From a virus: a DNA stretch of 33,817 nucleotides. The translations under genes and the position numbers were made by a program. This document shows, in pieces, positions 2,112 to 33,817 of this stretch. The notes below the pieces were generated by a model. The model did not search any database and had not been told where the DNA came from. It saw only the letters and a list, made by a program, of their open reading frames with translations. Positions within the stretch are counted from its first letter, which is position 1, and each line of letters starts with the position of its first letter. The stretch lies in IMG/VR virus record IMGVR_UViG_3300029448_000186, positions 1-33,817 of that record. One strand, given 5' to 3'.

Positions 2112-2541
2112 AAAAATTAAAGATGATATAGACTTTGATCAAAACATTAAGAAATTAATTGATGATGCTGTATTTTTATCAGCACAAATTGGTGTTAAGG
2201 AAATCAAAAGAGGATTAGATACATCTACAGATATAAAAGGTAGAAAATTTAAACCATTAGCAGCCTCAACAATTAAGCAAAAAAGAAAAAAAGGGCAACC
2301 AACTAAACCACTTATAGCAACAGGTATGATGAGAAGATTACCTCCTGTTAAAGGTAAGAGTGGTAAATCTACAGTATCTGTAGCCAACAAAAGAACTGAT
2401 ATATCACAATATCATGATCAGGGTGGAAGTACAGCAGGGCAACCACCAAAAAGAGAATGGTTTGGCTTAACTAAAGCAGCAGAGAAAAAGATTGATAAAA
2501 TGTTTAAATCTAAACTTGTAAAACTATATTCAAGACTATGA
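2095..2541 (+). CDS. Phage virion morphogenesis protein (Mu gpG / tail-completion-like)
   Basis: The 148-residue product shows the pattern of the Mu gpG-like virion morphogenesis family: a basic block with DIKGRKFKPLAASTIKQK, then PLIATGMMRR, a beta-rich part, and PPKREWFGLT near the C-terminus. Members act in head completion or head-tail joining. The frame has no early ATG, so the start is taken as TTG at 2095, inside the end of the upstream gene and preceded by a weak AAAGAG. It sits between the portal and a MuF-like gene, the usual place for this family. Confidence 0.75.
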   Translation: MKVKFRKIKDDIDFDQNIKKLIDDAVFLSAQIGVKEIKRGLDTSTDIKGRKFKPLAASTIKQKRKKGQPTKPLIATGMMRRLPPVKGKSGKSTVSVANKRTDISQYHDQGGSTAGQPPKREWFGLTKAAEKKIDKMFKSKLVKLYSRL

Positions 2542-3032
2542 ACACTTATGACGAATTAGGAGTTAAAATATCTAAAATGTTTGATGATTTGGCTCTTATT
2601 GTAACATCTAACTTAACATCAAGGATAAACTCTATGAGATTATCAGGTATGGCAGTATCTGAAGTAAGAAAAGTGCTAATTGCAGATCTTATTGCAGGTG
2701 GTAGAATATTTGGACAACTTCGTAATGGTGTAAAAAGAATATCTAAAAATGCAATAGAAGAAGCAGGTAACATTGCGGCACAAAAAGCATTTGAACAAAA
2801 AAATTTAAAACAATACAAATGGATTACAGTAGGTAAGAATATATGTCCTGATTGTAAGCCAAGACATGGGGAAACAGGAGAATTAGAGTATTTTAAGACT
2901 ATAGGTATGCCTAAAAGTGAATTTAGTGTATGTGGTACTAATTGTAATTGTATGTTAGTACCTATAGAGTATGAAGGAGAAGATTTAGAAGCACCTATTA
3001 AGTATAAGAAATCAACAGAAGGTAGAAAATGA
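2538..3032 (+). CDS. MuF-like minor head protein (SPP1 gp7-like)
   Basis: The 164-residue product carries the C-terminal MuF-type signature: KNICPDCKPRHGET (C103, C106, H110) followed by IGMPKSEF and CGTNCNCMLVP, a cysteine/histidine cluster that likely binds a metal. MuF/gp7 proteins bind the portal and are ejected or kept as minor head proteins. The upstream part is helical and amphipathic. It is shorter than the classic family (250-300 residues or more), so only the C-terminal module is present here. ATG overlaps the previous stop by 4 bases (ATGA), indicating coupled translation. Confidence 0.85.
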   Translation: MNTYDELGVKISKMFDDLALIVTSNLTSRINSMRLSGMAVSEVRKVLIADLIAGGRIFGQLRNGVKRISKNAIEEAGNIAAQKAFEQKNLKQYKWITVGKNICPDCKPRHGETGELEYFKTIGMPKSEFSVCGTNCNCMLVPIEYEGEDLEAPIKYKKSTEGRK

Positions 3033-3793
3033 TAAAAAGGGCTATTGTAACCCCTGATAAACATTTCCCATTAGCAGATATGGCTGCAATTAAGGTAGTA
3101 TGTAAAGCCATAGAACTATGTAAGCCTGATATATACATAGATCTTGGAGATACAACAGAAGGGGAAGCATTTAGTCATTGGAAGTGGAAAAGAAAAAAGA
3201 AGCCTCCTTTAGAGTATATACAGCCTGATATGGATAAAGAATTAAAGGCAGTAAATAAAGGAATGGACATTATAGACTATTCACTTGATAAAGTAGGTTG
3301 TAAAGAAAGGCATTTTGTACAAGGTAATCACGAGTTATGGCTTGATCAGTTTGTAGATGAACACCCATATCTACCACAATATAAAACAGAAAATGCCTTA
3401 ATGTTGAAAGAAAGAGGATATAAGTTTCATCATAATAGCGAATTTTTAAAGATAGGAAAACTATACTTTCATCATGGAAACTTTTATGGTGGGCAATATC
3501 ACGCAGCTAATCATCTGCGTAAATTAGGTTGCAATATAATATATGGACATACTCATGATGTTCAGATGCACTCTGCTACAATGTTAGGTGGGCAGGTTAG
3601 TGCGATAAGTTTAGGCTGTTTAAAGGATATGAGTAAACAATCTAATGCTTGGCTTGGAGGACGAGAGCATAATTGGAGTCATGCCTTTGCAATAGTAGAT
3701 TTTTTTGATAAAGGGCATTTTACTACTAATGTAGTACAAATAATAAAAGGAAAAGCAGTAGTGCAAGGAGAACTCATAGATGGGAATAAATAA
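3029..3793 (+). CDS. Calcineurin-like metallophosphoesterase
   Basis: The 254-residue product has the full set of calcineurin-type motifs in order: TPDKHFP (D10, H12), DLGDTTEG (D41), VQGNHELW (N100, H101), FHHGNF, and IIYGHTHD. These residues bind two metal ions and hydrolyse phosphomono- or diesters. The substrate cannot be told from sequence; DNA, nucleotides and phosphoproteins are all possible. It starts 4 bases inside the MuF-like gene, so it is expressed with the head genes, which is an unusual setting for an enzyme. I see no signal peptide, so it probably acts in the host cytoplasm or is packaged. Confidence 0.9.
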   Translation: MIKRAIVTPDKHFPLADMAAIKVVCKAIELCKPDIYIDLGDTTEGEAFSHWKWKRKKKPPLEYIQPDMDKELKAVNKGMDIIDYSLDKVGCKERHFVQGNHELWLDQFVDEHPYLPQYKTENALMLKERGYKFHHNSEFLKIGKLYFHHGNFYGGQYHAANHLRKLGCNIIYGHTHDVQMHSATMLGGQVSAISLGCLKDMSKQSNAWLGGREHNWSHAFAIVDFFDKGHFTTNVVQIIKGKAVVQGELIDGNK

Positions 3794-4089
3794 TGGATAT
3801 TTTACAGATTATGGAACAATTTGGTATTCCTGTGGCGATGACAATAGCATTCGGATTCTATATATGGAAGCAGAATCAGTTCATACAAAAAACATTAATG
3901 CAGGAGTTAGATCAGGACTTCAAGAGGTTGGAAGGTATTATTATAAAACTGATAGATCAGCAAAAAAAGGTACAAATGAAAGTTGAAAAGTTTCAAGGTA
4001 TATACGAAGCATTAATTGAAGTGTATGCAAGAAAAGATGATAATACAGATAAAATAATGAGAATAATGGAATCAGCAAAAGATGAATAA
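3793..4089 (+). CDS. Small membrane-anchored coiled-coil protein
   Basis: The 98-residue product has one hydrophobic segment near residues 12-25 (IPVAMTIAFGFYIW) followed by a long charged helix with heptad features (LDQDFKRLEGIIIKLIDQQ). The layout resembles the small spanin/holin-like or anchoring proteins seen in many marine phages, but nothing decides the function. The ATG sits inside a TAATGG overlap with the phosphoesterase stop. An overlapping frame from 3780 is rejected because it has no such structure. Confidence 0.6.
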   Translation: MDILQIMEQFGIPVAMTIAFGFYIWKQNQFIQKTLMQELDQDFKRLEGIIIKLIDQQKKVQMKVEKFQGIYEALIEVYARKDDNTDKIMRIMESAKDE

Positions 4090-4222
4090 ACCTCAACAAT
4101 TTAAGATACAAACACCTGTAGGCTCTATTGAAAGTGATAGTGGAAATCATTTTGTTGATGTTATAACTGTTGTTGGTGTAATAGTATTGTATTTAATAGC
4201 AAAGAAAGTATTAGGTAAGTAA
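4082..4222 (+). CDS. Single-pass membrane micro-protein (46 aa)
   Basis: The ATG overlaps the stop of the previous gene (ATGAATAA) and the stop overlaps the next start (TAATGG). The 46-residue product begins MNKPQQFKIQTPVG and has one membrane segment near residues 25-41 (FVDVITVVGVIVLYLIA) with a short basic tail. This is compatible with a holin-like or anchoring role, but no family is recognised. The tight overlaps on both sides support that it is translated. Confidence 0.6.
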   Translation: MNKPQQFKIQTPVGSIESDSGNHFVDVITVVGVIVLYLIAKKVLGK

Positions 4223-4479
4223 TGGCTAAATTTAAAGGTAGAAAAGTAAACTTAAACAAACCAACAAGAATACAAAAAGGACAAACAAGTTATGGTAGAA
4301 AAAAGTTCCAAGTATTTGTTAATGATGGTGGGAGAACTAAAAGGGTAACCTTTGGAGATCCTAATATGAAAATAAGAAAAAAAAATAAAAATGCTCGTAA
4401 ATCATTTAGAGCAAGAATGAAATGTAGCACAGCAAAAGATAAAACAACTGCAAGATATTGGAGTTGTAAGAAGTGGTAA
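4222..4479 (+). CDS. Small basic conserved phage protein, RARxxC / ARYWSCKKW family
   Basis: The 85-residue product is very basic and holds the string FGDPNMKIRKKN, then KSFRARMKC, and ends ARYWSCKKW. I recall this pattern (FGDPxM, RRKSFRARHNC, ARYWSCKxW) as a small conserved family in many marine tailed phages, often close to capsid and scaffold genes. The two cysteines (MKC and SCKKW) are conserved in that pattern and could bind metal. The role is unknown; a capsid-assembly or DNA-contact function is only inferred from position and charge. Start overlaps the previous stop. Confidence 0.7.
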   Translation: MAKFKGRKVNLNKPTRIQKGQTSYGRKKFQVFVNDGGRTKRVTFGDPNMKIRKKNKNARKSFRARMKCSTAKDKTTARYWSCKKW

Positions 4480-4483
4480 TATA

Positions 4484-4639
4484 ATGGGAATATATATACC
4501 ATCTATAATTAAAATATTAACACCTACTGTTGTGAAACAGATTATGAAGTATGTATTTGAAGAAAATGATGTAGATAAAAAAGTAAAGAAACTACAAAAA
4601 AGAATATCAAAACTTGAAAAACAAATAAAGGAGAAATAG
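4484..4639 (+). CDS. Coiled-coil micro-protein (51 aa), unknown
   Basis: The 51-residue product begins MGIYIPSIIKILTPTVV and ends with a charged heptad helix (KKVKKLQKRISKLEKQIKEK). The first 17 residues are hydrophobic and could form an amphipathic or membrane-contact helix. It is 5 bases after the previous stop and overlaps the next GTG start by one base. No family is recognised. Confidence 0.55.
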   Translation: MGIYIPSIIKILTPTVVKQIMKYVFEENDVDKKVKKLQKRISKLEKQIKEK

Positions 4640-4818
4640 TGGATATTAAAGATCTAATAGCAGGTTACTTATTTAATGACGAAACCAAACAAAAAATCAT
4701 TGATAAATTAAATGACAAGGTAGATGTACCTTTCATTAATGAAAAGACAGAAGAAAAAGTCCTTAATGCAGTATATGAGGCAGTAGAAGAAGCAATAAAA
4801 TCAGTATTGTTAAAATAA
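4639..4818 (+). CDS. Micro-protein with GTG start (59 aa), unknown
   Basis: A good ribosome site (AAAGGAG at 4626-4632) precedes the GTG at 4639, which overlaps the previous stop (TAGTG). The 59-residue product is helical and acidic in its second half (DIKDLIAGYLFNDETKQKII at the start, VEEAIKSVLLK at the end). No membrane segment or enzyme motif is seen. It belongs to the run of micro-genes before the scaffold. Confidence 0.6.
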   Translation: MDIKDLIAGYLFNDETKQKIIDKLNDKVDVPFINEKTEEKVLNAVYEAVEEAIKSVLLK

Positions 4819-4863
4819 TACTTTGAATAAACTGAAACTATTAATAAATTACAAGGAAGAATA

Positions 4864-5424
4864 ATGAAAAATTCAAACGAAAATCCAACCACCGACAATC
4901 AAGGTGTCAAAACAGATTCCGTTCAAGGAAACGACACTCCTTCCGTTGATGCAATAGACAACGACACTAAAACTATTGATTCGATTCCTTATGCTCGTTT
5001 TAATGAGGTTACTAAACAAAAAAGAGATTTAGAAGCTAAATTAAAAGATATTGAGGCTAAACAAGAAGCAAATCGTGTTAAAACTATGGAAGAACAAGGT
5101 AAGTATAAAGAATTAAATACTGAACTTATTTCTAAAGTAAATAAATACGAAGAAAAACTTAATGTTTATGCTGAAAAAGAAGCAAAAGAAAGAGAAAACT
5201 TAATATCACAATTAGATGATCAGGACAAAGAAGTTTATGGATCTTTAAGCAATGATCAATTAAGAAAGCATTTGTCTAAAGGGCAGAAGCCTAAACCTGC
5301 TACAATAAATACTACTCAACCTATAAGAGATAAGAGTGGTAATAAAGTATCAGATTGGACAAATCTATCTAAAGATGCTAAAAAATCTAATTGGAAAGAT
5401 ATTTTAAAGACATATACAAAATAA
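4864..5424 (+). CDS. Capsid scaffolding protein
   Basis: The 186-residue product has the layout of an HK97-type scaffold: a disordered polar N-terminus, then IPYARFNEVTKQKRDLEAKL, a motif common in phage scaffolds, a long coiled coil over about residues 45-115, and a lysine-rich C-terminal tail that would contact the capsid protein. It directly precedes the major capsid gene, the expected order. The scaffold directs procapsid assembly and leaves before DNA entry. No protease motif is visible here or next door. Confidence 0.85.
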   Translation: MKNSNENPTTDNQGVKTDSVQGNDTPSVDAIDNDTKTIDSIPYARFNEVTKQKRDLEAKLKDIEAKQEANRVKTMEEQGKYKELNTELISKVNKYEEKLNVYAEKEAKERENLISQLDDQDKEVYGSLSNDQLRKHLSKGQKPKPATINTTQPIRDKSGNKVSDWTNLSKDAKKSNWKDILKTYTK

Positions 5425-5495
5425 CAAATTAAAAAACATATTGCCCTACTTGAAGGCACTCTTGCAGTTGATAGAGGGCAAAGATCGGAGAAATT
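5425..5495 (+). promoter_or_regulatory. Capsid-gene leader with a 7-bp inverted repeat
   Basis: The gap between scaffold and capsid genes holds TTGCCCT (5441-5447) and its complement AGGGCAA (5475-5481), able to pair around a 27-base loop just before the GGAG ribosome site (5487-5490). It may stabilise the capsid mRNA or mark an RNA processing site. There is no T-run, so it is not a classic terminator. Confidence 0.35.
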
Positions 5496-6431
5496 ATGGC
5501 AACAGGATTTGCGACAACAGCAACCTCACAGGCTGCAGATACTGAATTAGCAGTATTTATACCTGAATTATGGACAGATGCAGTAAGAGCATCATTCAAG
5601 AAAAACCTTGTACTTGCAAGTGTAGGTACAGACTTATCATCATTAGCAGCAGGTGGTGGAGATACAATTAATATACCAAGTGTAGCAGATGTTCCAAATG
5701 TGGTAGCAAAAGCACCTCATGTAGCATTTGATTACACAAGTGCGACTGAAGATTCATTAAGTTTAGCACTTACTACACACAATGTTACAGGTACTATGGT
5801 AGAAGATATGGGTGCAATACAATCAAGTTCTGATTTATTATCAATGTATTCTGATTCTATTGGTTACAAACTTGCTTTAGGTTTTGATACTAATGTTGAG
5901 GCTGCTTTAGCACTTACAACAGAGTGTATTAATATTGCAGGTAATACAGTAGCAAAAACTATTGATGCTTTAACATTAGCACACATAAGCAAAGTTGCTT
6001 TAGAAAATGATTGTCCTTTAAATGAGTGTACACTTGTTTTAAATCCAACTTTATATGCTTCATTATTTAGAATAGATGATTTTATTCATATTTCTAAAAC
6101 AGGTATCGCTGATGCACCTAATGGTTCAGTAGGATCTGTTATGGGCATGAATGTAGTTCTATCTAATAATATCACATCTACAAATCACAATGACGCAGTT
6201 GATTCTGATGATGGTGCATTAAATAATGCAAATGTATTAGGTGGATTCGTAGTGCATAATTCTGCTTTAGTGTATGGCTTCAGCCAAGCACCAAGAGTAC
6301 AAGCAGAGTATTCAGTTGATCATTTAGCAACTAAACTAATAGGAGATTCTATTGGTGGTGCTAAATTAGTTCAAGATGCTTCTCAAACTAAATGTTGGGG
6401 AATTGTTGAAGAAGGCACAACTGCTTGGTAA
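5496..6431 (+). CDS. Major capsid protein (HK97 fold)
   Basis: The 311-residue product follows the scaffold and has a good GGAG site. It begins with a polar arm, then FIPELWTDAVRASFKKNLVL, a segment like the N-arm and E-loop start of HK97-fold capsid proteins, then GDTINIPSV, and a C-terminal half with the motif GMNVVLSNN and a closing GGAKLVQDASQTKCWG, as in many T7/P22/lambdoid-like marine capsids of about 300 residues. It makes the icosahedral shell. A strong hairpin follows the stop. Confidence 0.9.
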   Translation: MATGFATTATSQAADTELAVFIPELWTDAVRASFKKNLVLASVGTDLSSLAAGGGDTINIPSVADVPNVVAKAPHVAFDYTSATEDSLSLALTTHNVTGTMVEDMGAIQSSSDLLSMYSDSIGYKLALGFDTNVEAALALTTECINIAGNTVAKTIDALTLAHISKVALENDCPLNECTLVLNPTLYASLFRIDDFIHISKTGIADAPNGSVGSVMGMNVVLSNNITSTNHNDAVDSDDGALNNANVLGGFVVHNSALVYGFSQAPRVQAEYSVDHLATKLIGDSIGGAKLVQDASQTKCWGIVEEGTTAW

Positions 6432-14400: not shown

Positions 14401-14831
14401 ATGAAATTCTATTTAGACTAAATGTATGGTATTATTATAAGGGTTGTGAAGTGGTAGAACATTTTACAACCTTCCCATACAAAGCAAGAAGTTTAACTTT
14501 AAACAAAGAAATAGAATTTAATAATATAGAAGATGTTTATGAAGAATTATGTAGATGCTATGATAAATCATTTAACAAATATCCTATTGGAGAGTCTTTA
14601 TTTGTTTCACATTTATTTTATTCCAACCCTGCAAACTTTTATGATCCTAAAATCCAAAATAGAATTAAAAAAGTTCAATATTCTTTAGAATCTAATACAC
14701 CTTTATATTCTACAGTACAACATACACCTGCAAGTGTAGTAGATGAGTTTTTAATATATAGTGCTGAAAAAGAACATTGCATTCAGTATTTAGCGAAAGA
14801 AAGAAAGAAAAAAGATGGCAATAAAAAATAA
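14397..14831 (+). CDS. Tail-assembly chaperone, -1 frameshift extension (gpT-like)
   Basis: This frame is open from the slip site to a stop at 14831, directly overlapping the tape measure start. After the shift the fused product would be about 235 residues: 91 of the first part plus about 144 (VDEILFRLNVWYYYKGCEVV, then EHFTTFPYKARS). It has no good ribosome site of its own; the GTG at 14451 lies in a stem-loop. The fused long form is expected at lower amount and would bind the tape measure, as lambda gpGT does. The end is basic (AKERKKKDGNKK). Confidence 0.85.
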   Translation, partial: VDEILFRLNVWYYYKGCEVVEHFTTFPYKARSLTLNKEIEFNNIEDVYEELCRCYDKSFNKYPIGESLFVSHLFYSNPANFYDPKIQNRIKKVQYSLESNTPLYSTVQHTPASVVDEFLIYSAEKEHCIQYLAKERKKKDGNKK

Positions 14832-17355
14832 ATATGTATTAGAATTTAATTCTAAAGGTGTCAAAAAAACCAAACAAGATGTAGATAAACTTGACAAGAG
14901 TCAAGGCATATTAGCAAAAAATTCAGGAAAATTAAAAGCAGGTATGGCTATAGCAGGTACTGCTATTGTTGCAATGGGTGTTCACGCAATAAAAACAGCA
15001 GGGGAATTTGAAAAATTACAAACAAGATTAATAACTATGTATGGTAGTGTTAATAAAGGTACAAAAGCATTCAGAGAATTTACAAAAGTTGCCTCAACAA
15101 CTCCTTATGCAGTTAAATCAGTAGTAGAAGCAGGTGCTGCACTTAAAGCATTTGGTATGGACGCAGAAAAAAACATCAAAGGTGTAGCAGATTTAGCGGC
15201 ATTTATGGGTGTAGATGTAGTAGAAGCAGCAAACGCAATGGGTAGAGCATTTGCAGGTGGTGCAGGTGCTGCAGATGTATTAAGAGAACGAGGGGTATTA
15301 GAGTTAATAAAATCATTTAAAGGCATAGAGGACATTACTAAACTTACCTTACCTGAATTTAGAACTGCATTAATAGATGCAATGGAAGATCCATCAATAG
15401 GTATATCAGGTTCTACTAATGCACTTGCAGAAACATTTGAAGGAAATATGTCTAATATGATGGACTCAATAGATATGTTAGCTGCAGGTTTTGGAGAAAA
15501 ATTATTACCTGCTGTTAAAACTGCTACTCAAACTATGAAAGGTTGGGCAGATACATTAGGGGGAGCAAAAGATCCGATACAAGAAGGAATAATAGCTTTA
15601 AATAAACAAAACGCAGAAATGGGAATGCTTGTTAGACAACTTGACGATGCAGAAAAAGGTAGCAATTTATACCAACAAGCATTAAATAGAATTAGAAAAG
15701 AATATCCTGAATTGCTTGGTGGTATGGACGGAGAAAATATTGAATTAGAAAAAGTAGTAAAAAATCTTGAAGATGCAAACTTTGAAAGACAAAAAGAAAT
15801 AGCTTTATTAAATCAAAGATTAAAACTTGCTGCAGCAGAAGATCAATTACAAAAAATATATGAAAAACAATATGAGATAGTAGGTAAAGTTGCTGAAGAA
15901 CAAACACAAATGGTTACAGAGTTACAGGGAAGGGTTGATGATTATTTAGATTCAGGTGGTAATACTGAAATTGCTAAATTTATGCAAGGGCAAATAGATT
16001 TAATTCAAAGAACTAATACAGAATTTAATAAACTTGGAATGAAGCCTGAAACATATAAAAAAATCATAACTGAAGCAATGACTACTTTAAAAGGTTTTTA
16101 TGAAGTTGCTCCTGAAACAGATTGGATAGATAAATTAGTTGCAAAAGCAAATCAAATGGGAGAAGATATTTTAGCACCCGCTTATCCTGATTGGTATAAT
16201 GATTTTATGAACGAATTATTAATTCCTATGCAAGGTGGCTATGAAGGAATGAGCCTTGCTGTTAATAAAAATATAAAAGATATGCAAAAAGTATTGGATC
16301 AATACAAAACAAACAAAGAATTTAATCAAGGCATGGCAGATTCAATGCAAGCAATAATAGATACTGAAATACAAAAATTGGAAAAATTAGAAGAACAATA
16401 TGGTAAAGTAGAAGATAAAAGAAAAGGGGGAGAAGACCCTCCTGAAGATGGCACTGATCCTTTAAAAACATTTGTACCAACAATAGAAGTTGAGCCTTCA
16501 GGGAAAATGTGGGAAGGTATATTACCTGATAAAACCCAATTTACTGCATCTGCTGAAGAAATATCAGCAGGATTAGAGGCAGTAAAATCTATTTATATGG
16601 AAAGAATGATGGCTTTAAGAGAAGAACTTGTTGAAGCTAATATTATGGATATACTTTCAGGTGGAACAACAGAAGAAAGAGAAGAAAAAAAACAAGAAAT
16701 TGTAAATCAAATTAATGGATTAGCAGATGCAATTGGTAGTATAGAGAAAAAAACAGCAGTATCTACCACAAATTCTTTAGGGTTTTTTGCTAAATTCGCT
16801 AAAGGTGTTAAAAAATTCTCAACACAAGTAGCAAAAGATGAAAACAATATACAACAAGAAGTATTAGATGGTGCATCTTCTCTTATTGCTGCAGGTGGGC
16901 ATGGTAAAGAAAAACAAATTAAAATGCAAAAAGCAATGATTAAAGCAAATACTGCTAAAGGTTTAATAGATATATGGACAAGTCCTGCACCATCAGATCC
17001 ATTAACTGCTGCAAAAGCAATAGCAGCAAGTGCTGTATTAGTAGGTAAAGCATCGCAATCTAACCAACAATTAAATCAAGCATTAGCAGATTTAAAAGGT
17101 GGAGGACAAGAAACTTCAGCACAATTTGCAGAATATGGTATGAATCAAGTGGTAGATGGAGCAACACCGATCATAGCAGGAGAAGCAGGTGCAGAGTTAG
17201 TGCAAATTACACCACTTGAAGGACCTAATGTTGATGGTCCTCAAGGACAAGGGCAAATAGTAATAACAGGTAATGTTATGAGTAAAGATTTTGTAGAAGA
17301 TGAGTTAGTAGAACAACTAAAAGAATCAATAAGACAAGGATATGATTTTAGATAA
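14815..17355 (+). CDS. Tape measure protein
   Basis: The 846-residue product starts within the chaperone end. It has a basic N-terminal coiled coil, a hydrophobic segment near residues 42-64 (AGMAIAGTAIVAMGVHAIKT), then the phage tape measure core (GEFEKLQTRLITMYGSV, FTKVASTTPYAVKSVVEAG, GRAFAGGAGAADVLRERGV), long helical stretches, and a glycine/alanine-rich end. These are family hallmarks. It sets tail length; by the usual 1.5 angstrom per residue the tail would be near 120-130 nm, consistent with a siphovirus. Confidence 0.93.
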   Translation: MAIKNKYVLEFNSKGVKKTKQDVDKLDKSQGILAKNSGKLKAGMAIAGTAIVAMGVHAIKTAGEFEKLQTRLITMYGSVNKGTKAFREFTKVASTTPYAVKSVVEAGAALKAFGMDAEKNIKGVADLAAFMGVDVVEAANAMGRAFAGGAGAADVLRERGVLELIKSFKGIEDITKLTLPEFRTALIDAMEDPSIGISGSTNALAETFEGNMSNMMDSIDMLAAGFGEKLLPAVKTATQTMKGWADTLGGAKDPIQEGIIALNKQNAEMGMLVRQLDDAEKGSNLYQQALNRIRKEYPELLGGMDGENIELEKVVKNLEDANFERQKEIALLNQRLKLAAAEDQLQKIYEKQYEIVGKVAEEQTQMVTELQGRVDDYLDSGGNTEIAKFMQGQIDLIQRTNTEFNKLGMKPETYKKIITEAMTTLKGFYEVAPETDWIDKLVAKANQMGEDILAPAYPDWYNDFMNELLIPMQGGYEGMSLAVNKNIKDMQKVLDQYKTNKEFNQGMADSMQAIIDTEIQKLEKLEEQYGKVEDKRKGGEDPPEDGTDPLKTFVPTIEVEPSGKMWEGILPDKTQFTASAEEISAGLEAVKSIYMERMMALREELVEANIMDILSGGTTEEREEKKQEIVNQINGLADAIGSIEKKTAVSTTNSLGFFAKFAKGVKKFSTQVAKDENNIQQEVLDGASSLIAAGGHGKEKQIKMQKAMIKANTAKGLIDIWTSPAPSDPLTAAKAIAASAVLVGKASQSNQQLNQALADLKGGGQETSAQFAEYGMNQVVDGATPIIAGEAGAELVQITPLEGPNVDGPQGQGQIVITGNVMSKDFVEDELVEQLKESIRQGYDFR

Positions 17356-20300
17356 TGTCAATAGAAATAAGTGATATATTTAAGTCCGATACAGGTAATA
17401 CAAGACAAAGTGTAGTACCTTTAGTAGTTATTTATAAAAATACAAGAGCAGATGCTTTTGAAACTATAGATAGTGTAAGTGATGATGATAAGTTGTTTTT
17501 ATCAACTCAAAACATACATTTTGACGGAAATTATTATGAACCACTACTACAGAATATACCTGATATTAAAGAAAGTTTAGATTTAACAACCAAACAATAT
17601 CGTATTCAAAGTTCAGGTTTAACTATTAGCAATGTATCTTTTCATGGTAGAAAGTTTTCAGGTTACATAAAAGATGTTATTAATTGTGCTGTTAGAATAT
17701 ATTGGAAATCACAATCTTGCAAAACATTAGAAGATTGCTCTATGATCAATCAAGGCACTATCACAAGATTTACACAAACAAAAACAGCCATTAAATTATC
17801 AGTAGAAGATATATCTCAATTAACTTTAGATAAACTAATACCTGAATTAATACCTGATGAAGATCAATATGCCAAACAAGACAGATTAACACCTTTTCCA
17901 ATGGTGTATGGCCATGTAACTAAATCTCCTTTAAAAAAGAAAGTTGATAATATTTTAGCTACTGAAGATGGTGTAGAATCAGTTACAGCATTTGTTGTTG
18001 ATACAGAACCTGTATCTAAAATTGTATCAGAATCAAAATTAACAGATTATCCTACTGTAGTTCAAGAAAAAATGCCTGAACAATCAGCAGTATATTTAAA
18101 AGATGGCGATGATTATATTAATATATTAAATAATATACCACAAGATTATGGGCAATGGTTTTATTTTTTACAAGATATATCAGGAGAAATGTTTGAAGTA
18201 GTTGGTAGTGAAATTATTGCAACACCATTATATACACAAGCACAACAAGAAATTTTTAGGGTATTTGGTTATGAATCCCCTGCAATGGGTAGAGTGTTAA
18301 GAAGAATAACACAAATTAAAGGGCATAGAAAAGCAAGATCAAGAGCAATATCAGGGGGAGAATCATATTCAGACAATGGTGGAGTAGGACACAAAATAGG
18401 TGGGCAACTTTTTGCAGTTCGTGATTTAACAAAAGATCCTTGGCTCAATCTTGAAAATGGTGCAGCACTATCAACTGAAGCAGGTAGTGTAAATAATGAA
18501 GAAGTAAGATATGCACCTTCAAGATGGTATCAAAATATGTGGGACGCAGATAATCAGTATTCAAGAGATGCTTTTATATTTCCTTTTTCTTCAGATAATA
18601 GAAATTCAATAACAAATCCTCCAAGCAGTTGGATTCCTGATGATGATCTTTGGAATGGTGGTTGTGATGAATTAGATGATGAGGTATTTGGAGAAACAGA
18701 AGATTGGGATAGTCATTACGGACTTGTTAAACCAAATGATTTTAAAGATGCTATAAAAAATGACGACAATAGAGGTTTAGGTTGGTATGGGAGGCAAGAA
18801 TCTGAAGTAGGAGAAGATGGTGCTTATGTTTATTGGGAATTTGTTTTAGATCCACTTGAAACTAATTCTAAATGTATTACTTGGTTTATTGCAGATATAT
18901 GGGCATATAGTGGGTGGAATTGGCAATTAAGTAGTACAGGTGTTCATGAATATAATATGGCAAGTGCATTGTGGGGAGGCGAAAGTATACCTCAACACCC
19001 AAATCCAAATTATACTCATTCTAATTATAATACAGAAGAAACTTGGGCAAGAGAAATTCATTCTTTTCCATCTTTTTTACCACACAATAAACAACATATT
19101 AGAGGAGAAGATGGGGGATTTCAATTAAACACAAGAGAATTTACTCGTCATAATCCAACAGGAACTAACTTTATAAATGCTTGGAGTTTTCCTGAAAATA
19201 CCATTATACATGAATGGAATACACCTAATCAATTTAAATCAATTAAGTTAGGTATGCCTCAAATTGTTCAAAAAGAAGTAGATATACAATATCTTGCTTA
19301 TTGTTGTGGTGCTATAAATTATATGCACATTATACAAGATGTTTTTGTAGAAAATACACACGAAAAAACTTGGTATGCAAATGTATACGGAAGATTATCA
19401 GAAGGTTTAACTAATTGGAGTCCATTTAACTCATTTTTAACAGAAACATTAACTGAATGGGTTGAAGATGTATATGACTATGCTGAAGGTTTAGGCTATT
19501 CACAAGGTGGATCAGGAGGACAAGCAGGGTGGCTTGTAAATGGTGGAGATGATATGACTTCACAAGATCTAATTGAAAGTATGCAAATCACACCAAATAA
19601 AATGTGGGTTATATTTTTTGATGGAACAACAAATGTTTATGAAGATGGGCAATTTGATAATAATAGCACTATTGAAACAGGCACTCCTTTTATAATTTTT
19701 ACAGAAGATGTACATAGGGTAACACCTACAGAGTCATTTAGAAGAAACTTTATAAGAATGCACTTATTAGAATCAGGTTGGGAACAAGGATTTCAACCAA
19801 GTGAAGCAGCAACAAAAATACAAGAATTTTACACAGCTAATGGTTGGGACGATTCTGTTTATATTCCTGAAGTTAATGTTAGTGGTATGGTAGAAACACC
19901 TCATGGAATTGTACAACATTTACTATCATCAGAAGTAGATTACAATTCTGATTATTATGATGAAGAAATGTTACACCTAACACAATCAATACATCAGGGT
20001 TGGAGAATGGCTTTTACATTAACAAAGCAAATGAAAGTAAAAGAATTAATAGAAGAATTTGCTACTAATACAAAAATGTTCCCAAAATTTAGAGCAGATG
20101 GTACATTTACTTTTAATCCTATGAAATCATTTTATAATATGAGTGATACAAAATATAGAATTTATGCACCTGATGTTCAAAAATTTAGTTTTCAATTAAC
20201 TAATGTTGATGATGTTTATGATCAACTTAAATTATTATATCATTATGATTATGGTAATAATGATTTTAAAAAAGTAATAGAACCTCCAATACAAACACAA

Positions 20301-21491
20301 ACAGGAGAATATAGTTCATATTGGAGATTAACAACCGATTTATACCAAGACACTAACCCTGAATGGGTTTACAACCTTAATGATATATACCAAAAAACAG
20401 CAGAAGAAGGATTAACACAATTTGAGGCTAAATATATTAGAGATGATTATACTGCTAATGAATTTAAAAAGTATAAAATGATGGAATCTATTAATCAAAA
20501 ACTAATTGTTAAACTTGAATTATCAACAAAGTTTTTAAATCTTGAAGCAGGAGATGTAGTATATATAAGTCAATTATCAGATGAAACTGCATTTGGCTAT
20601 AAATATTGGACATATGAAGTAAAAGGTGGGCAATTAGTATATCCATTTTTTATAGTTAAAGAAATTAAAAAGAAAGCAAACAAAATTGATGTAATAGCAC
20701 AACAATTACATAGATTACAATATGGTTTACCATCATGGTATATTGAGGGTTATAACAATGATGAAGGTTTTGTTCCTCCACTTACAGAAGATGGTATTGA
20801 AGATACAATAGATGATGGGAACGTATATAATGGAAATGGAGATAATGTTACATATACTTACCAATCTGCATATTCAGAACCTGAATTAGAATTTTCTGAA
20901 TATTTTAATGTAGAGTGGGAAAATGGAGAATTTGCTTGTAGTTGGTATGCAGATGACAGTGTAAGATTAAACATATATCAAAACCCTTATTCATTTGAGT
21001 ACCCTAATGGTATGACTTGGACAGCAGAAATTGCTGATATTGTAGATGGAGAAGTTGGGACATATTCACAAGAAACTGATAATTTTGAACTTTCTACTGT
21101 ATCAGCAGGAGATGCTTCTAATAATCAAGGGTATTGTATTATTAAAACAAAAGCACAAAACTATACTTACCCTCCTAATTTTGGTAAAATAAGGATAACT
21201 ACTGAAGAAGGTAACATTTTAATCCGTGATTTTAGACAAGAGTATAATGTAGGTGGAACAACTGAAGCAACAGGAGATGTAAACCAAGATGGTGTTGTGA
21301 ATATATTAGATGTTGTTATGATGGTTAATTTTATATTAGGAACTTTAGATCCTGAAGAATTTTGGGCTGATGATGATTGGGAAGAAGAACTTGGTTACTT
21401 TGTTGATACAGGAGATATGAATCAAGATGGTGGATTAAACATTTTAGATATAATAGCAGTAATGGACATAATAACAAGTGGGCAAGGATAA
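17355..21491 (+). CDS. Giant tail-tip/hub protein with C-terminal dockerin-like module
   Basis: The 1378-residue product starts in a TAATG overlap with the tape measure. Its N-terminal 200 residues (IEISDIFKSDTGNTRQSVVP, then LEDCSMINQGTITRF) look like the distal-tail or hub beta domains of marine siphoviruses. A long central part is aromatic-rich and probably receptor-facing. Near residues 950-1140 helices and strands follow (LTKQMKVKELIEEFATNTKM, EAGDVVYISQLSDET), like tail hub domains. The C-terminal 76 residues hold two EF-hand-like calcium loops, typical of dockerin. The protein combines several functions usually split among separate tail genes. Confidence 0.8.
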   Translation: MSIEISDIFKSDTGNTRQSVVPLVVIYKNTRADAFETIDSVSDDDKLFLSTQNIHFDGNYYEPLLQNIPDIKESLDLTTKQYRIQSSGLTISNVSFHGRKFSGYIKDVINCAVRIYWKSQSCKTLEDCSMINQGTITRFTQTKTAIKLSVEDISQLTLDKLIPELIPDEDQYAKQDRLTPFPMVYGHVTKSPLKKKVDNILATEDGVESVTAFVVDTEPVSKIVSESKLTDYPTVVQEKMPEQSAVYLKDGDDYINILNNIPQDYGQWFYFLQDISGEMFEVVGSEIIATPLYTQAQQEIFRVFGYESPAMGRVLRRITQIKGHRKARSRAISGGESYSDNGGVGHKIGGQLFAVRDLTKDPWLNLENGAALSTEAGSVNNEEVRYAPSRWYQNMWDADNQYSRDAFIFPFSSDNRNSITNPPSSWIPDDDLWNGGCDELDDEVFGETEDWDSHYGLVKPNDFKDAIKNDDNRGLGWYGRQESEVGEDGAYVYWEFVLDPLETNSKCITWFIADIWAYSGWNWQLSSTGVHEYNMASALWGGESIPQHPNPNYTHSNYNTEETWAREIHSFPSFLPHNKQHIRGEDGGFQLNTREFTRHNPTGTNFINAWSFPENTIIHEWNTPNQFKSIKLGMPQIVQKEVDIQYLAYCCGAINYMHIIQDVFVENTHEKTWYANVYGRLSEGLTNWSPFNSFLTETLTEWVEDVYDYAEGLGYSQGGSGGQAGWLVNGGDDMTSQDLIESMQITPNKMWVIFFDGTTNVYEDGQFDNNSTIETGTPFIIFTEDVHRVTPTESFRRNFIRMHLLESGWEQGFQPSEAATKIQEFYTANGWDDSVYIPEVNVSGMVETPHGIVQHLLSSEVDYNSDYYDEEMLHLTQSIHQGWRMAFTLTKQMKVKELIEEFATNTKMFPKFRADGTFTFNPMKSFYNMSDTKYRIYAPDVQKFSFQLTNVDDVYDQLKLLYHYDYGNNDFKKVIEPPIQTQTGEYSSYWRLTTDLYQDTNPEWVYNLNDIYQKTAEEGLTQFEAKYIRDDYTANEFKKYKMMESINQKLIVKLELSTKFLNLEAGDVVYISQLSDETAFGYKYWTYEVKGGQLVYPFFIVKEIKKKANKIDVIAQQLHRLQYGLPSWYIEGYNNDEGFVPPLTEDGIEDTIDDGNVYNGNGDNVTYTYQSAYSEPELEFSEYFNVEWENGEFACSWYADDSVRLNIYQNPYSFEYPNGMTWTAEIADIVDGEVGTYSQETDNFELSTVSAGDASNNQGYCIIKTKAQNYTYPPNFGKIRITTEEGNILIRDFRQEYNVGGTTEATGDVNQDGVVNILDVVMMVNFILGTLDPEEFWADDDWEEELGYFVDTGDMNQDGGLNILDIIAVMDIITSGQG
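21261..21488 (+). other. Dockerin-like calcium-binding repeat pair in the tail-tip protein
   Basis: Residues 1303-1378 contain GDVNQDGVVNILD (loop from D1308) and GDMNQDGGLNILD (loop from D1354), each followed by a hydrophobic helix (VVMMVNFILG, IIAVMDIITS). The D-x-N-x-D-G-x-x-N-x-x-D spacing is that of type I dockerin repeats, which fold with bound calcium and bind cohesin domains in cellulosomes. Here the function would be calcium-stabilised attachment at the tail tip; whether a cohesin-like partner exists is unknown. Confidence 0.85.
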
Positions 21492-22189
21492 TGAAAAAAA
21501 TTAGAGCAGAAATAATAGATGGTAAATTTAGATTATATAATCAATATCCTGAATTGGCAGGTATAGAAATTACTTATTCAGGAGAAGTATATATTAACCC
21601 AACACTTCCTGAAGGTTGGGCATTAAGAGCAGGTAACAATAAAATATTAATAGTCAATTTTGGTACAAATATTATAGAAAATGGATTTGATTTATTTACT
21701 TATGAAGGTGTTTTAAATGTTAGGAATTGTTTAGGTGCAACAAAACAAATGGAAAGAGTTCAGATTACAGTAGCAAACAAAAAGATTCTTTGGGGAGATA
21801 GCAAAATGCAAGGAATGACAGAAAAAACTGATACTTGGGATTCTTTAGAGCATAACAACATATCAAAACCAAAACAACCTAAAATATTTGGGCAAAAATA
21901 CAAAAGTCAATACCAAAAATCAAATATTGGCATTGTTAATATTCAAATGCAAAAGAATTTACACACTAAAGGTGGCGAATATACACTTAATGGAAAAGAT
22001 TATAAAGGTTACTATCATGTTCATTCTGATATGGGTTATGCAATGACAGGTAAAACTCATAGCAAGGCATCAAAACATTTACAAAGAGGAAGCGATAAAA
22101 TTATTAGAAAACAACCAAAAATGGCAACCCAATCTACACCAAGCACACCAAGTACACCAAGTACACCAAGCACAGGGGGTGGTTATTAA
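21491..22189 (+). CDS. Tail-tip/baseplate-associated protein with TPS-repeat tail
   Basis: The 232-residue product has an N-terminal beta region (IEITYSGEVYINPTLPEG), a middle basic linker, and near residues 156-193 the string GGEYTLNGKDYKGYYHVHSD then AMTGKTHSKASKHL. I recall this G-x-x-Y-x-G-x-YH-x-H pattern from baseplate and tail proteins of marine phages, including T4-like ones. The end is a low-complexity STPSTPSTPST linker and GGGY. It starts in a TAATG-type overlap. Role is structural, at or near the tail tip. Confidence 0.65.
   Translation: MKKIRAEIIDGKFRLYNQYPELAGIEITYSGEVYINPTLPEGWALRAGNNKILIVNFGTNIIENGFDLFTYEGVLNVRNCLGATKQMERVQITVANKKILWGDSKMQGMTEKTDTWDSLEHNNISKPKQPKIFGQKYKSQYQKSNIGIVNIQMQKNLHTKGGEYTLNGKDYKGYYHVHSDMGYAMTGKTHSKASKHLQRGSDKIIRKQPKMATQSTPSTPSTPSTPSTGGGY
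22133..22174 (+). repeat. 9-base minisatellite coding a Thr-Pro-Ser repeat
   Basis: Four copies of ACACCAAGY (Y is C or T) encode a run of T-P-S units near the end of the 21491 gene, a flexible linker. Copy number could vary between phage variants by slippage. Confidence 0.85.
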
Positions 22190-23346
22190 TGGCTAATAAT
22201 CAAATACCTAAAACACCTCGTTTTTTTGTTGATATGATGAGTTATTTACACGCAACAGGGCATGGAAAATATTTTACTCGCAAAGATAGTGAACATTCAG
22301 ACAATCCTGCTGTTGAACAAATACATTATGGAGAAAAGGCAGACTTGTTATATTGTAATACATCAAGTGTTATTAAATTTACAGAAGATGCACCTAATTA
22401 TGGTGGAGATACTATATTTAACTATGAAGATTATTGGTGGAGTCACACAGCAATAACTTTTCCTGTATTGCCAATAGATTGTTTAGTTTGTTTAAATCAT
22501 AATCTTGAAGGTATGTCATTTACAGGTGGTAGTTGGACTAACCTTGTATCGGAATGGGGTTTTGGACAAGGAAATAATTTAGTAAATTGGTTAGATCCCA
22601 TTGAACATAATGGTTTTTCTATTAAATTAATATCTACACCTTTTTATACTACTACAGATACAAAAAGATTATATGCTTATTTTTATGATTATATAGGTAA
22701 TGTTGGGCAACGATATATGGGTAGTTATTTTTTTGGTAAAACTTGGACACCAAACATAGATCCAAAAGTTACAATGTCAAGAGAGTTTGATGGAATCAAG
22801 GTTAGCAGAACTAAAGGTGGCTTTTCTCATCATAATGTTAATTATTTAGGTAATCCATTATGGAGTGGACATAATGCTTGGGAATTATGGAAATATCCAT
22901 CTGATCCTGCTACTACACCACCAAATGAAAATCCTGATTCAACACAACAACAAATGTTTATAGAGGACGATAAAGCAAATCTTGGTAGATTGGGCAGAAG
23001 AAAATGGACAATAAGTTTTACCCATATTGCAGATTATGATTTACACGCAGCACTTGAGCAAACAAATTGGAATAGTTTTGATGGCACTCAAACATACCCT
23101 GATAATTCAGAACAAAACTTTACAGAAAAAGGATATGACAACCCTATATTACAAGAAGATAATTTTATGAGTAGATTATGGATTCCTACTTTAGGGGGAA
23201 CAATTCCGTTTGTATTTCAACCAAATACAGAAAATAATAATCCTGATCAATTTGCTGTATGCACTTTTGATAGAAATAGTATAAGCATTTCAACATTAGC
23301 ACCAAATATGTATTCAATATCATTTAGTATAAGCGAGGTATGGTAA
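22189..23346 (+). CDS. Tail-tip protein, first of a tandem paralogous pair
   Basis: The 385-residue product shares its whole plan with the next gene: PRFFVDMMSYLHATGHGKYF at the start, IPIDCLVCLNHNL-like middle (here LPIDCLVCLNHNL), IEHNGFSIK, GNPLWSGHNAWE, NLGRLGRRKW, and the end LWIPTLGGTIPFVFQP then NNNPDQFAVCTF and SISEVW. It is soluble and rich in aromatics, like a tail-tip or receptor-binding protein. A tandem pair suggests a hetero-ring or two alternative tip proteins. No glycosidase or peptidase motif is visible. Confidence 0.65.
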   Translation: MANNQIPKTPRFFVDMMSYLHATGHGKYFTRKDSEHSDNPAVEQIHYGEKADLLYCNTSSVIKFTEDAPNYGGDTIFNYEDYWWSHTAITFPVLPIDCLVCLNHNLEGMSFTGGSWTNLVSEWGFGQGNNLVNWLDPIEHNGFSIKLISTPFYTTTDTKRLYAYFYDYIGNVGQRYMGSYFFGKTWTPNIDPKVTMSREFDGIKVSRTKGGFSHHNVNYLGNPLWSGHNAWELWKYPSDPATTPPNENPDSTQQQMFIEDDKANLGRLGRRKWTISFTHIADYDLHAALEQTNWNSFDGTQTYPDNSEQNFTEKGYDNPILQEDNFMSRLWIPTLGGTIPFVFQPNTENNNPDQFAVCTFDRNSISISTLAPNMYSISFSISEVW

Positions 23347-24404
23347 TGGGCTATCAGGAACTAAAGAAACCAAAATTTTATATTGATATGATGTCATACC
23401 TACACGCAGTAGGTAAAACAGAATATTTTAAAAACCAAGAATTATATGATACTGATTTAAATGCACATACTTATAGTGGAACTTTTGAAGATCTATTATA
23501 TTTAAATCCAATTAGCATAATTAAAACTTTTAATGCAGGTACAGTAGATCCATTTGTTGAATTTAAATCAGATAAAGACTTCCCAACAATTCCTGTTGAT
23601 TTTATAGGGCTATTAAATCACAATTTAAGCAATCAAACGACTTTTGTTCAATCAAACAATTCTGTTCTTGGTGCTTCTCCCTATGTGTTTGATAAAAATA
23701 TTAATTTTGGAAATGCTTCCCTTACGATTGAACATAATGGTTTTTCTTTAGCAACTTTTACATACACTCACATATTAAGTCCTGCAAGTATAAAAATAAC
23801 ATCAATGAGAACAGCAGATGATACAGCGAATTATATAGGTAGTTTTTTAATGGGTTGTACTTGGAGTCCTCCACATAACCCACAATTAAAAGCATCTATA
23901 TTAAGAAAATTTGATGGTATTAAATCTAAAAAAACACAAGCAGGACACACAAGATCAGATATGAATTATATTGGTAATCCATTATGGGCAGGTAGAAACC
24001 CTTTTGAACAATGGAATTATGAAGATAATTTTGTTCCTGATGATACTAATATGATTATAGAAGATTCTAAAACAAATTTAGGTAACACAGGTAGAAGAAG
24101 TTGGAAATTAACTTGGGATTCTGTAAGTGATACAGATTTATTTGCAGAACTTGAACAATCAAACAATGCTTTAGATATAGTAGATTCAAACATTGATAAT
24201 CCATTTTTACAAAGTAATACATTTATTTCAAGGGTATGGACACCAACATTAGGTGGTTCTTTACCTTTTATGCTGCAAATAGATGATTCTAACAATAATC
24301 CTGATCAGTTTGTTATAGCAAGATTTAAAAAGCATTCACTAACACTAACAAGTAAAGCACCTAATTTATATTCTTTTTCAGTAGACATAGAAGAAACTTG
24401 GTAA
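23346..24404 (+). CDS. Tail-tip protein, second of the paralogous pair
   Basis: The 352-residue product mirrors its neighbour: KPKFYIDMMSYLHAVGKTEY, IPVDFIGLLNHNL, IEHNGFSLA, GNPLWAGRNPFEQW, NLGNTGRRSW, and the end VWTPTLGGSLPFMLQ, NNNPDQFVIARF, VDIEETW. The start is placed at ATG 23346 in a TAATG overlap with GAGG 7 bases upstream; ATG 23340 is too near that site. It is the last late gene, followed by a terminator. Divergence between the two is greatest in the middle, as expected for surface loops. Confidence 0.65.
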   Translation: MGYQELKKPKFYIDMMSYLHAVGKTEYFKNQELYDTDLNAHTYSGTFEDLLYLNPISIIKTFNAGTVDPFVEFKSDKDFPTIPVDFIGLLNHNLSNQTTFVQSNNSVLGASPYVFDKNINFGNASLTIEHNGFSLATFTYTHILSPASIKITSMRTADDTANYIGSFLMGCTWSPPHNPQLKASILRKFDGIKSKKTQAGHTRSDMNYIGNPLWAGRNPFEQWNYEDNFVPDDTNMIIEDSKTNLGNTGRRSWKLTWDSVSDTDLFAELEQSNNALDIVDSNIDNPFLQSNTFISRVWTPTLGGSLPFMLQIDDSNNNPDQFVIARFKKHSLTLTSKAPNLYSFSVDIEETW

Positions 24405-29072: not shown

Positions 29073-29903
29073 ATGAGTAAGGTTTTTAAAAAATATGCAA
29101 AAGGTAATCTTAATGCAGACTTAAAAGTTATATCTCTTGGTATGGGGGTTCAATCAACTGCTGTATATTTAATGAGTTCTATGGGTTGTAAATTACCAAG
29201 AGCAGATTATGCTATATTTTCAGATCCACAAGCAGAACATTATAAAACTTATGATATGTTAAAATGGCTGCTAAAATGGAAAGAAAAAAACAATGGAATT
29301 GACATTATAGTTAATAGAGATAACAATATTTATACTGATCAGCTTAAAACAAGTGCTGATCAGCATATAAGAGTACCACAAATCCCTGCACACACAGATC
29401 CAACAGGAATTGCTATGAGGCAATGTACTTATGAATATAAAATAGCACCTGTAATAAAAACCACAAGAAAATTACATGGTTTAAAACCAAGAAAAAGAAT
29501 GAAACCTACTGAAATGTGGCTTGGTATATCAACAGATGAAATTGAAAGAATGAAAGACAGTAGTTTATATAATATTAAATATTTTTATCCACTTATATAT
29601 CATAGGTTAAGTAGAACAGACTGTATTAACTTTTTTAAAGAAAACAATTTCCCTGTACCTGTAAAATCATCTTGTGTATTTTGTCCTTATCATTCAAATA
29701 GTTTTTGGGCAGAACTTCAGAAAGAAAATGGAGATGCTTGGAAGAAAAGTGTTGAAGTAGATAAAGCAATTAGGAGAAAGTATGGTATGGACAAAGATAT
29801 GTATTTACACACATCAAGGAAACCATTAGAAGATATAGATTTTGATGATAAGCAGCTACCCTTATTTGAAGGCTTTGATTGTGAAGGACATTGTGGGTTA
29901 TAA
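29073..29903 (+). CDS. PP-loop ATPase / PAPS-reductase-like enzyme
   Basis: The 276-residue product has SLGMGVQSTA (S21-T29), the PP-loop of adenine nucleotide alpha-hydrolase/PAPS reductase proteins, a second motif around YAIFSDPQAEH, and cysteines C118 (RQCTYEYKI), C184, C201 and C204 (SSCVFCPYH), plus CEGHC at the end that may hold a metal or Fe-S cluster. Family members activate a substrate with ATP or use sulfate-type donors; DndC, which adds sulfur to the DNA backbone, belongs here. It has a good AAGGAG site. Whether it acts on DNA or on small molecules is unknown. Confidence 0.8.
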   Translation: MSKVFKKYAKGNLNADLKVISLGMGVQSTAVYLMSSMGCKLPRADYAIFSDPQAEHYKTYDMLKWLLKWKEKNNGIDIIVNRDNNIYTDQLKTSADQHIRVPQIPAHTDPTGIAMRQCTYEYKIAPVIKTTRKLHGLKPRKRMKPTEMWLGISTDEIERMKDSSLYNIKYFYPLIYHRLSRTDCINFFKENNFPVPVKSSCVFCPYHSNSFWAELQKENGDAWKKSVEVDKAIRRKYGMDKDMYLHTSRKPLEDIDFDDKQLPLFEGFDCEGHCGL

Positions 29904-32726: not shown

Positions 32727-33015
32727 CATACCTCCAAATAAGGTACAAGAGTTAGCCGAGTTCGGTTGTACTAACAAAGAAATAGCACAATTTTATGGTT
32801 GCGATGAATCTCTTATCCGTAAGAGTTATTCCGAATTTATCACAAAAGGCAGAGCATCAGGAAAAACAAGGTTACGAGAACTACAATGGGAAGTAGCAAA
32901 AAAAGGTAATGTTACTATGCTTATATGGCTTGGAAAACAGGTATTGGGACAATCAGAGAATCCTATGGTTATGGAAGATGAACTTGTAGAAGGCTTTGAT
33001 CTTGAAGTCATTTAA
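32704..33015 (+). CDS. terS: Terminase small subunit
   Basis: The 103-residue product begins MARPKKYDIPPNKVQELAEF, then GCTNKEIAQFYGCDESLIRK, a helix-turn-helix that binds the packaging start site, and a basic middle helix. It ends with an acidic tail (MEDELVEGFDLEVI) that likely contacts the large subunit. Length and immediate position before terL support the call. It overlaps the HNH gene by 23 bases with an AAGGGAAG site. Confidence 0.85.
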   Translation: MARPKKYDIPPNKVQELAEFGCTNKEIAQFYGCDESLIRKSYSEFITKGRASGKTRLRELQWEVAKKGNVTMLIWLGKQVLGQSENPMVMEDELVEGFDLEVI

Positions 33016-33817
33016 GGTATTCAAACATCAGAATCAATTCATAAGAAGTAACGCAAAATACCCTGCACTTGTAGCAGGATATGGTAGTGGTAAGACAGTA
33101 GCATTTGTTCTTAAAGCATTATTAGAAGCAGGAAGAAACCCACAAAAAACAATCCTATTAGCAGAACCTACATTTCCTATGATCAGAGATGTACTACAAC
33201 CTACACTTGAAGAAACATTAGAACAATTAGGATTTTCATTTAAATATAGAGCATCAGAAATGAAGTATACTATTAAGTGGAGAAATGGTTATTCTAACAT
33301 TATATTAAGATCAGCAGAAAACTACAGAAGATGGGCAGGGCTTAATTTAGCAGGTTTTGGTATAGATGAGGCAGCACTACTTAAAGATGATAAGGCATGG
33401 AAGATGGGACTATCAAGACTACGAGATGGAAACAATTTGACAGGCTTTATTACCACAACACCTGAAGGATTTAACTTTGTATATGATTTATGGAAAGATA
33501 AGCCTAAATCAGGATATGAGTTAGTTCAAGGCAAGACTACAGACAACAAATACTTACCACAAGATTTTATAGATTCATTATATGAAAACTATGATAACAA
33601 ATTAATCAGTAGTTATATTGATGGTAATTTTGTAAATTTACAATACGGAACTTGTTATTATGCTTTTGATAGAGTTAAAAATGTAAATCAAGTTTCTTAT
33701 AATAGTTCCCTACCTATTAGAATAGCAATGGATTTCAATGTAGATCCAATATCTTGTGTTTTGTTTCAGATATACAAAGACAAGCCCAAGATAAGAGTGT
33801 TTGACGAAATACAGCTT
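33002..33817 (+). CDS. terL: Terminase large subunit, N-terminal ATPase part (continues at base 3)
   Basis: The frame has no ATG before the Walker A motif, and GAAGG lies 8 bases before TTG 33002, so TTG is the likely start, inside the end of terS. Walker A is GYGSGKT (residues 26-32), Walker B is AGFGIDEAA (D122, E123), and the coupling motif is ITTTPEGF. This is the packaging ATPase. The gene runs to the window end and continues in frame at the left end, joining to a protein of about 426 residues, normal for the family. Confidence 0.93.
   Translation, partial: MKSFKVFKHQNQFIRSNAKYPALVAGYGSGKTVAFVLKALLEAGRNPQKTILLAEPTFPMIRDVLQPTLEETLEQLGFSFKYRASEMKYTIKWRNGYSNIILRSAENYRRWAGLNLAGFGIDEAALLKDDKAWKMGLSRLRDGNNLTGFITTTPEGFNFVYDLWKDKPKSGYELVQGKTTDNKYLPQDFIDSLYENYDNKLISSYIDGNFVNLQYGTCYYAFDRVKNVNQVSYNSSLPIRIAMDFNVDPISCVLFQIYKDKPKIRVFDEIQL
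33717..33814. repeat. Right copy of the contig-end overlap
   Basis: These 98 bases repeat bases 1-98 exactly. The last three bases (CTT) differ from the left copy (TTA at 99-101) at two of three places, as expected from an unpolished contig edge or a strain variant. Removing one copy gives a circular unit of about 33.7 kb. Confidence 0.9.

Follow-up and report, generated by a model that had tools for sequence, protein, structure and literature searches.

Organization of the tail module

The window, by which we mean the whole stretch of DNA analysed, is the 33,817-nucleotide IMG/VR record IMGVR_UViG_3300029448_000186. Because a large terminase gene (32996–33817) runs off its end and a portal-like gene (1–566) lies near its start, the record is a nearly complete phage genome cut inside the terminase. 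The features considered here all lie on one strand:

14815..17355, + strand: tape measure protein, 846 residues, the upstream neighbour of the hub (Pfam TMP_3, E = 1.8e-7, below the curated cut-off; PHROG 973)
17355..21491, + strand: tail-tip hub protein, 1378 residues, with a dockerin at its C-terminus, directly after the tape measure gene (142 related loci; homolog L250)
19887..20720, + strand: conserved core of the hub, residues 845–1122 (alignments A1 and A2)
21261..21488, + strand: type I dockerin module, residues 1303–1378 (Pfam PF00404, PDB dockerin matches, relatives)
21276..21311, + strand: calcium loop 1, DVNQDGVVNILD, residues 1308–1319 (ligand positions kept in 85 relatives)
21414..21449, + strand: calcium loop 2, DMNQDGGLNILD, residues 1354–1365 (ligand positions kept in 85 relatives)
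21489..21493, + strand: TAATG, where the hub stop codon overlaps the cohesin-like gene's start codon (read from the sequence)
21491..22189, + strand: cohesin-like adaptor protein, 232 residues, proposed partner of the dockerin (its family lies directly 3' of the hubs)
21491..21781, + strand: predicted N-terminal cohesin-fold domain, residues 1–97, nine strands (AF2, Foldseek, hhalign)
22189..23346, + strand: conserved downstream tail gene (related ORFs in 103 loci)
23340..24404, + strand: paralog of the preceding gene, 39% identical to it (related ORFs in 104 loci)

The tape measure gene also matches PHROG 973 ('tail length tape measure protein', E = 5.8e-16) and occurs at 93 of the 142 related loci that were fetched. 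The product of 22189..23346, for which neither Pfam nor PHROG gave a match, is a candidate receptor-binding or tip protein; the window holds two such paralogous genes in tandem (22189–24404), and most related loci have one 3' of the hub within the fetched flank. A PAPS-reductase-like gene lies further downstream (29073–29903; PHROG 424, E = 2.1e-35). The viral contigs are apparently marine, judging from the record names and from matches in marine MAGs.

A single dockerin is found in the 33.8 kb record, together with one cohesin-like domain detected by the phage profile and no PF00963 cohesin. The record thus does not fit a cellulosome, a system recognized by a multi-cohesin scaffoldin, carbohydrate-binding modules and dockerin-bearing enzymes.

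The dockerin module and the hub family

The preliminary description had placed a dockerin-like calcium module at the end of the tail protein, and it is borne out at the same coordinates: the module has two complete loops and matches Pfam Dockerin_1 (PF00404) with E = 3.6e-9 and 37.1 bits, against a cut-off of 22.9. In a phmmer search of the PDB the module matches solved dockerins (4dh2_B, E = 3.6e-6; 5nrk_B, 2.9e-5). All five calcium-ligand positions (1, 3, 5, 9 and 12) are occupied by D or N in both loops, and each loop is followed by a hydrophobic helix. The loop pattern is absent from every other ORF of at least 60 residues in the window, and in 5000 shuffles of the hub protein it occurred on average 0.0014 times and never twice. 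The spacing of 46 residues between the loops is the maximum for the family (range 17–46, commonest 34), owing to an acidic insert, DPEEFWADDDWEEELGYFVD, that separates them (21312–21413). The AF2 model of the homologous module of relative L007 shows, at high confidence, two loop-helix units packed as a compact module (helices 17–28 and 55–68 after the loops; block pLDDT 94–97), which accords with the paired EF-hand loops that a predicted structure was expected to contain. The tail-tip hub of the window thus carries a genuine type I dockerin as a fixed C-terminal part.

Like the clostridial cellulosomal dockerins (PF00404; PDB 4dh2 and 5nrk), the phage module is C-terminal, consists of two loop-helix repeats with complete ligands and scores above the Pfam cut-off; it differs in being carried by a tail-tip protein and, in the window copy, in its longer acidic insert between the loops. 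The recognition positions 10 and 11, a Ser-Thr pair in C. thermocellum, are hydrophobic in the phage dockerins (mostly V or I followed by L).

Relatives of the hub were sought with its core alone, so that the query was free of dockerin sequence, and whole-family and hub-core searches together yielded a set of 143 loci. Of the distinct complete hubs from uncultured viral contigs with a real C-terminus, 85 of 89 end in a two-loop dockerin, and the ligand positions 1, 3, 5, 9 and 12 are kept in both loops across these 85 relatives. The four others are L125, in which the hub is frameshifted just past the core and the dockerin is intact in the next frame (2175–5532), L062 and L142, which keep a residual half-dockerin (Pfam E = 0.003 and 0.013), and L070, whose end has diverged. 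The dockerin module is therefore almost always present in this family of tail proteins. The frameshift in L125 is either a sequencing error or a programmed shift. Some hubs carry an extra half-dockerin ahead of the module (L003, L004, L028, L142 and L062), and it is this half alone that L062 and L142 retain.

Searching IMG/VR with the dockerin itself returned five homologous hubs with dockerin-type loops at the end, of which four have the two-loop form. The same query also returned a trypsin-like serine protease with a two-repeat dockerin (L005:4080-5438, IMGVR_UViG_3300030108_004562) in a 51 kb contig classed as viral, which is either a host fragment or a phage carrying a secreted enzyme.

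For the window hub, Pfam gives the dockerin alone, Phage-tail_3 (PF13550) not being reached, and PHROG gives no match. A homolog in a bacterial genome, L250, does match Phage-tail_3 above the cut-off (E = 1.3e-6), and through it the window hub core groups with the hub and tip proteins of that family. Neither the hub nor any of five other proteins or segments taken from the window or its relatives had a relative among 50,697 phage records, save for a weak capsid match in cyanophages; similar viral proteins are present in UniProt without names, as seen from BFVD matches. Scanning GTDB genomes for a hub-core pattern gave no match, but later whole-genome profile searches did find relatives. These lie in five places in 4 of 245 Neomarinimicrobiota genomes, and in 2 of the 395 genomes of the phylum to which the Prevotellaceae MAG G002 belongs, where one of them is a fragment.

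A predicted cohesin fold beside the dockerin

Both dockerins and cohesins are well known from cellulosomes, and also from bacterial and archaeal proteins that are not cellulosomal. The preliminary description had suggested that a cohesin-like fold be sought among the other tail proteins, and the first candidate, the product of the gene that follows the hub, is predicted to fold like a cohesin; a partner-type domain for the module is thus present in the window. The family of this product shares an N-terminal domain of ∼100 residues, and in the AF2 model built for the window protein with 26 relatives residues 1–97 form nine strands with a pLDDT of ∼94. When this model was compared by Foldseek with 350,542 PDB chains, ranks 1–12 were all cohesins (best E = 1.4e-3, probability 1.00). 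A second model joined the dockerin and the cohesin-like domain of relative L007 in an artificial in-frame fusion, with the TAA read as Q, so that both domains could be modelled together. Its mean pLDDT was 92.8, with nine strands in the cohesin-like domain and the two dockerin helices visible, and its pTM was 0.66, a value that does not decide the docking of the two domains. Against the PDB, ranks 1–7 and all six matches with E ≤ 1e-3 were again cohesins (best E = 5e-5). Taken together, the models indicate that the first 97 residues of the 21491 product have a cohesin fold. TM-scores are modest, because the phage domain, at ∼97 residues, is shorter than solved cohesins (∼135–170).

Sequence gave weaker evidence for a cohesin than fold did. 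Profile comparisons of this protein with Pfam, PHROG and the PDB left it unidentified and returned no PDB cohesin, the fold comparison alone pointing to one, and none of 26 members of the family matched PF00963 at E ≤ 5. Aligned by hhalign with cohesin-like repeats, delimited by hand, from the marine MAG Candidatus Neomarinimicrobiota MED589, the phage domain scored 31.9 (E = 1.6e-4 for a single comparison, probability 50), whereas none of 150 column-shuffled controls exceeded 17.6 and no other phage profile exceeded 15.6; Poribacteria cohesins, taken as a set by themselves, gave no match. It is because PF00963 was not matched, the repeats were delimited by hand and the Poribacteria set was unmatched that we call the domain cohesin-like and not a member of PF00963. 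Two other places for a cohesin, the downstream paralogs (hhalign score 9.9) and the beta-rich region before the dockerin (8.7), were rejected.

The alignment with the MED589 repeats is in register through the GIEI-GF, GW and NKIII segments. Unlike the phage domain, these repeats are found in large secreted proteins, which end in a sorting-type C-terminal domain, and themselves score weakly against PF00963. The solved structures nearest to the two phage models are nine-stranded beta-sandwich cohesins (PF00963; PDB 6kge, 4dh2 and the non-cellulosomal archaeal 2xdh). The phage domain differs from these in its length (∼97 versus ∼140 residues), in lacking Pfam-level similarity and in occurring as a single N-terminal copy on a small adaptor, with no scaffoldin. 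The remainder of the adaptor contains a YHVHSD-MTGK segment in the window. Of the 86 distinct cohesin-like proteins, 52 have a basic, Ser/Gly-rich tail that finishes in GGY.

The dockerin and the cohesin-like gene occur together. Where at least 450 nt of downstream sequence made a hub testable, the cohesin-like gene lay directly 3' of it in 117 of 118 cases, the exception being the frameshifted L125. Scanning by a different neighbour gene recovered the dockerin and the cohesin-like gene in 57 of 57 testable new loci, and scanning by the cohesin-like protein placed a dockerin ORF directly upstream in 34 of 34 newly fetched loci; these counts include some overlapping contigs. By itself such linkage is no proof of contact, since neighbouring tail genes are conserved too. 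Both junctions of the adaptor gene have the same TAATG form, the second at 22187–22191, and the overlap with the hub makes translational coupling of the two genes possible.

Absence is shared as well. Unlike the phage hubs, the six complete hub relatives in bacterial genomes end at the core and have neither a dockerin nor a cohesin-like gene after them. This fits a joint gain of both parts, and counts as one event at most, given that the six need a single change on a tree with weak support and several long branches. Dockerin-less relatives inside Neomarinimicrobiota genomes (L248, L249, L250, L251 and L252, in G197, G198, G196 and G099) are probably prophages or phage contigs, in a phylum for which few phages are known. 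Natural fusions of hub and cohesin were not found among the fetched loci; a viral BFVD entry of 1389 residues (A0A516LNX3), which aligns over 165 columns with the model of the dockerin-cohesin fusion, may combine hub, dockerin and cohesin in a single natural protein.

The proposed joint at the tail tip

These observations suggest that the dockerin, with two calcium ions, probably plugs into the cohesin-fold domain of the next gene's product and so holds this adaptor at the tail tip. Hub subunits at the tip would expose their C-terminal dockerins, each of which would bind calcium, an ion that is plentiful in sea water, and capture one adaptor through its cohesin-like domain. The adaptor would thereby be held at the tip without covalent fusion, possibly along with the tip proteins that follow, as its C-terminal part, often ending in GGY or containing the YHVHSD-MTGK segment of the window, may carry the products of 22189 and 23340. 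The binding of the two domains, the need for calcium, the stoichiometry and the carrying of the next proteins by the adaptor are steps that we infer. The preliminary description had already raised a calcium-stabilised dock for another virion protein, and the anatomy favours it, with a cohesin-like product encoded next to the hub in essentially all relatives, but the co-variation test does not: in a partial Mantel analysis of 53 loci, dockerin and cohesin distances showed no excess co-variation beyond that of the hub core (r = −0.02, p = 0.65). At cohesin differences below 15%, the mean difference between dockerins is 42%. In cellulosomes many dockerins bind many cohesins, and fast dockerin change beside similar cohesins fits either a permissive joint or a dockerin that faces a receptor.

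The latter would be expected if the tail-tip dockerin imitated host dockerins and bound a bacterial surface cohesin as receptor, which was the other alternative of the preliminary description; the phage cohesin might then bind host dockerins in turn. Such docking to the host is consistent with phage dockerins diverging more rapidly than the hub core among loci whose cohesins are similar, and with the best bacterial dockerin matches of the module lying in MED589, a genome with 86 dockerin matches as well as a few weak matches to cohesins. It is a live alternative, but not one that the data require, and we regard it as unlikely, because the phage has a cohesin-fold partner of its own in the adjacent, overlapping gene in every testable relative, and because the likeness to host dockerins is only 31–41% over the module and shows no specificity for a single phylum. 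Together with the hub relatives in the same phylum, the MED589 dockerin matches amount to a lead towards a host, short of a host assignment. It is quite unlikely that the dockerin is a mere calcium-stabilised cap or trimer-stabilising element and that its neighbour resembles cohesins only as a jelly-roll-like sandwich. The missing co-variation signal would agree with this, as would the cellulose- and chitin-binding modules and other Ig-like sandwiches found lower in the Foldseek lists; yet two separate searches gave cohesins alone in their first 12 and first 7 ranks, respectively, the sequence profile points independently to bacterial cohesin-like repeats, and a cohesin fold is unlikely to stand beside a dockerin by chance. 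A chaperone-like contact made during tail assembly and parted before the virion matures appears very improbable: the overlapping TAATG junction does suggest coupled synthesis, but nothing specific points to release, and known cohesin-dockerin pairs are very tight.

A joint that persists in the virion would resemble the non-cellulosomal cohesin-dockerin pairs of bacteria and archaea in being a plug and socket outside cellulose degradation, with the difference that both halves here belong to a phage tail module. On balance, we favour the view that a virus-encoded dockerin-cohesin joint is used to build the tail tip throughout an uncultured lineage of marine tailed phages, and that the joint was acquired from marine bacteria or is shared with them. 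A dockerin-like gene product is mentioned in a paper on Vibrio phage VvAW1 (PMC3558961), and another phage paper labels a carbohydrate-binding module as dockerin (PMC5967307). Our literature search, across 5.39 million papers, found no virion described as having a cohesin-dockerin pair.

If the proposed joint is real, it would be the first use of the dockerin-cohesin plug and socket inside a virion, and would offer a modular point for swapping tip proteins or for engaging host dockerins and cohesins with the same joint. Bacteria use this connector to build cellulose-digesting complexes, and its contacts, which rank with the strongest non-covalent joints known between proteins, are widely exploited in protein engineering. 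Having both halves fixed in a phage tail module would extend to the architecture of viruses a system of bacterial extracellular enzymes, and would supply many natural dockerin-cohesin pairs for specificity studies. It would also put names on two protein families that now match nothing, or a dockerin only, in Pfam and PHROGs, and would give the tail-tip proteins of a large unannotated group of marine phages a testable assembly rule.
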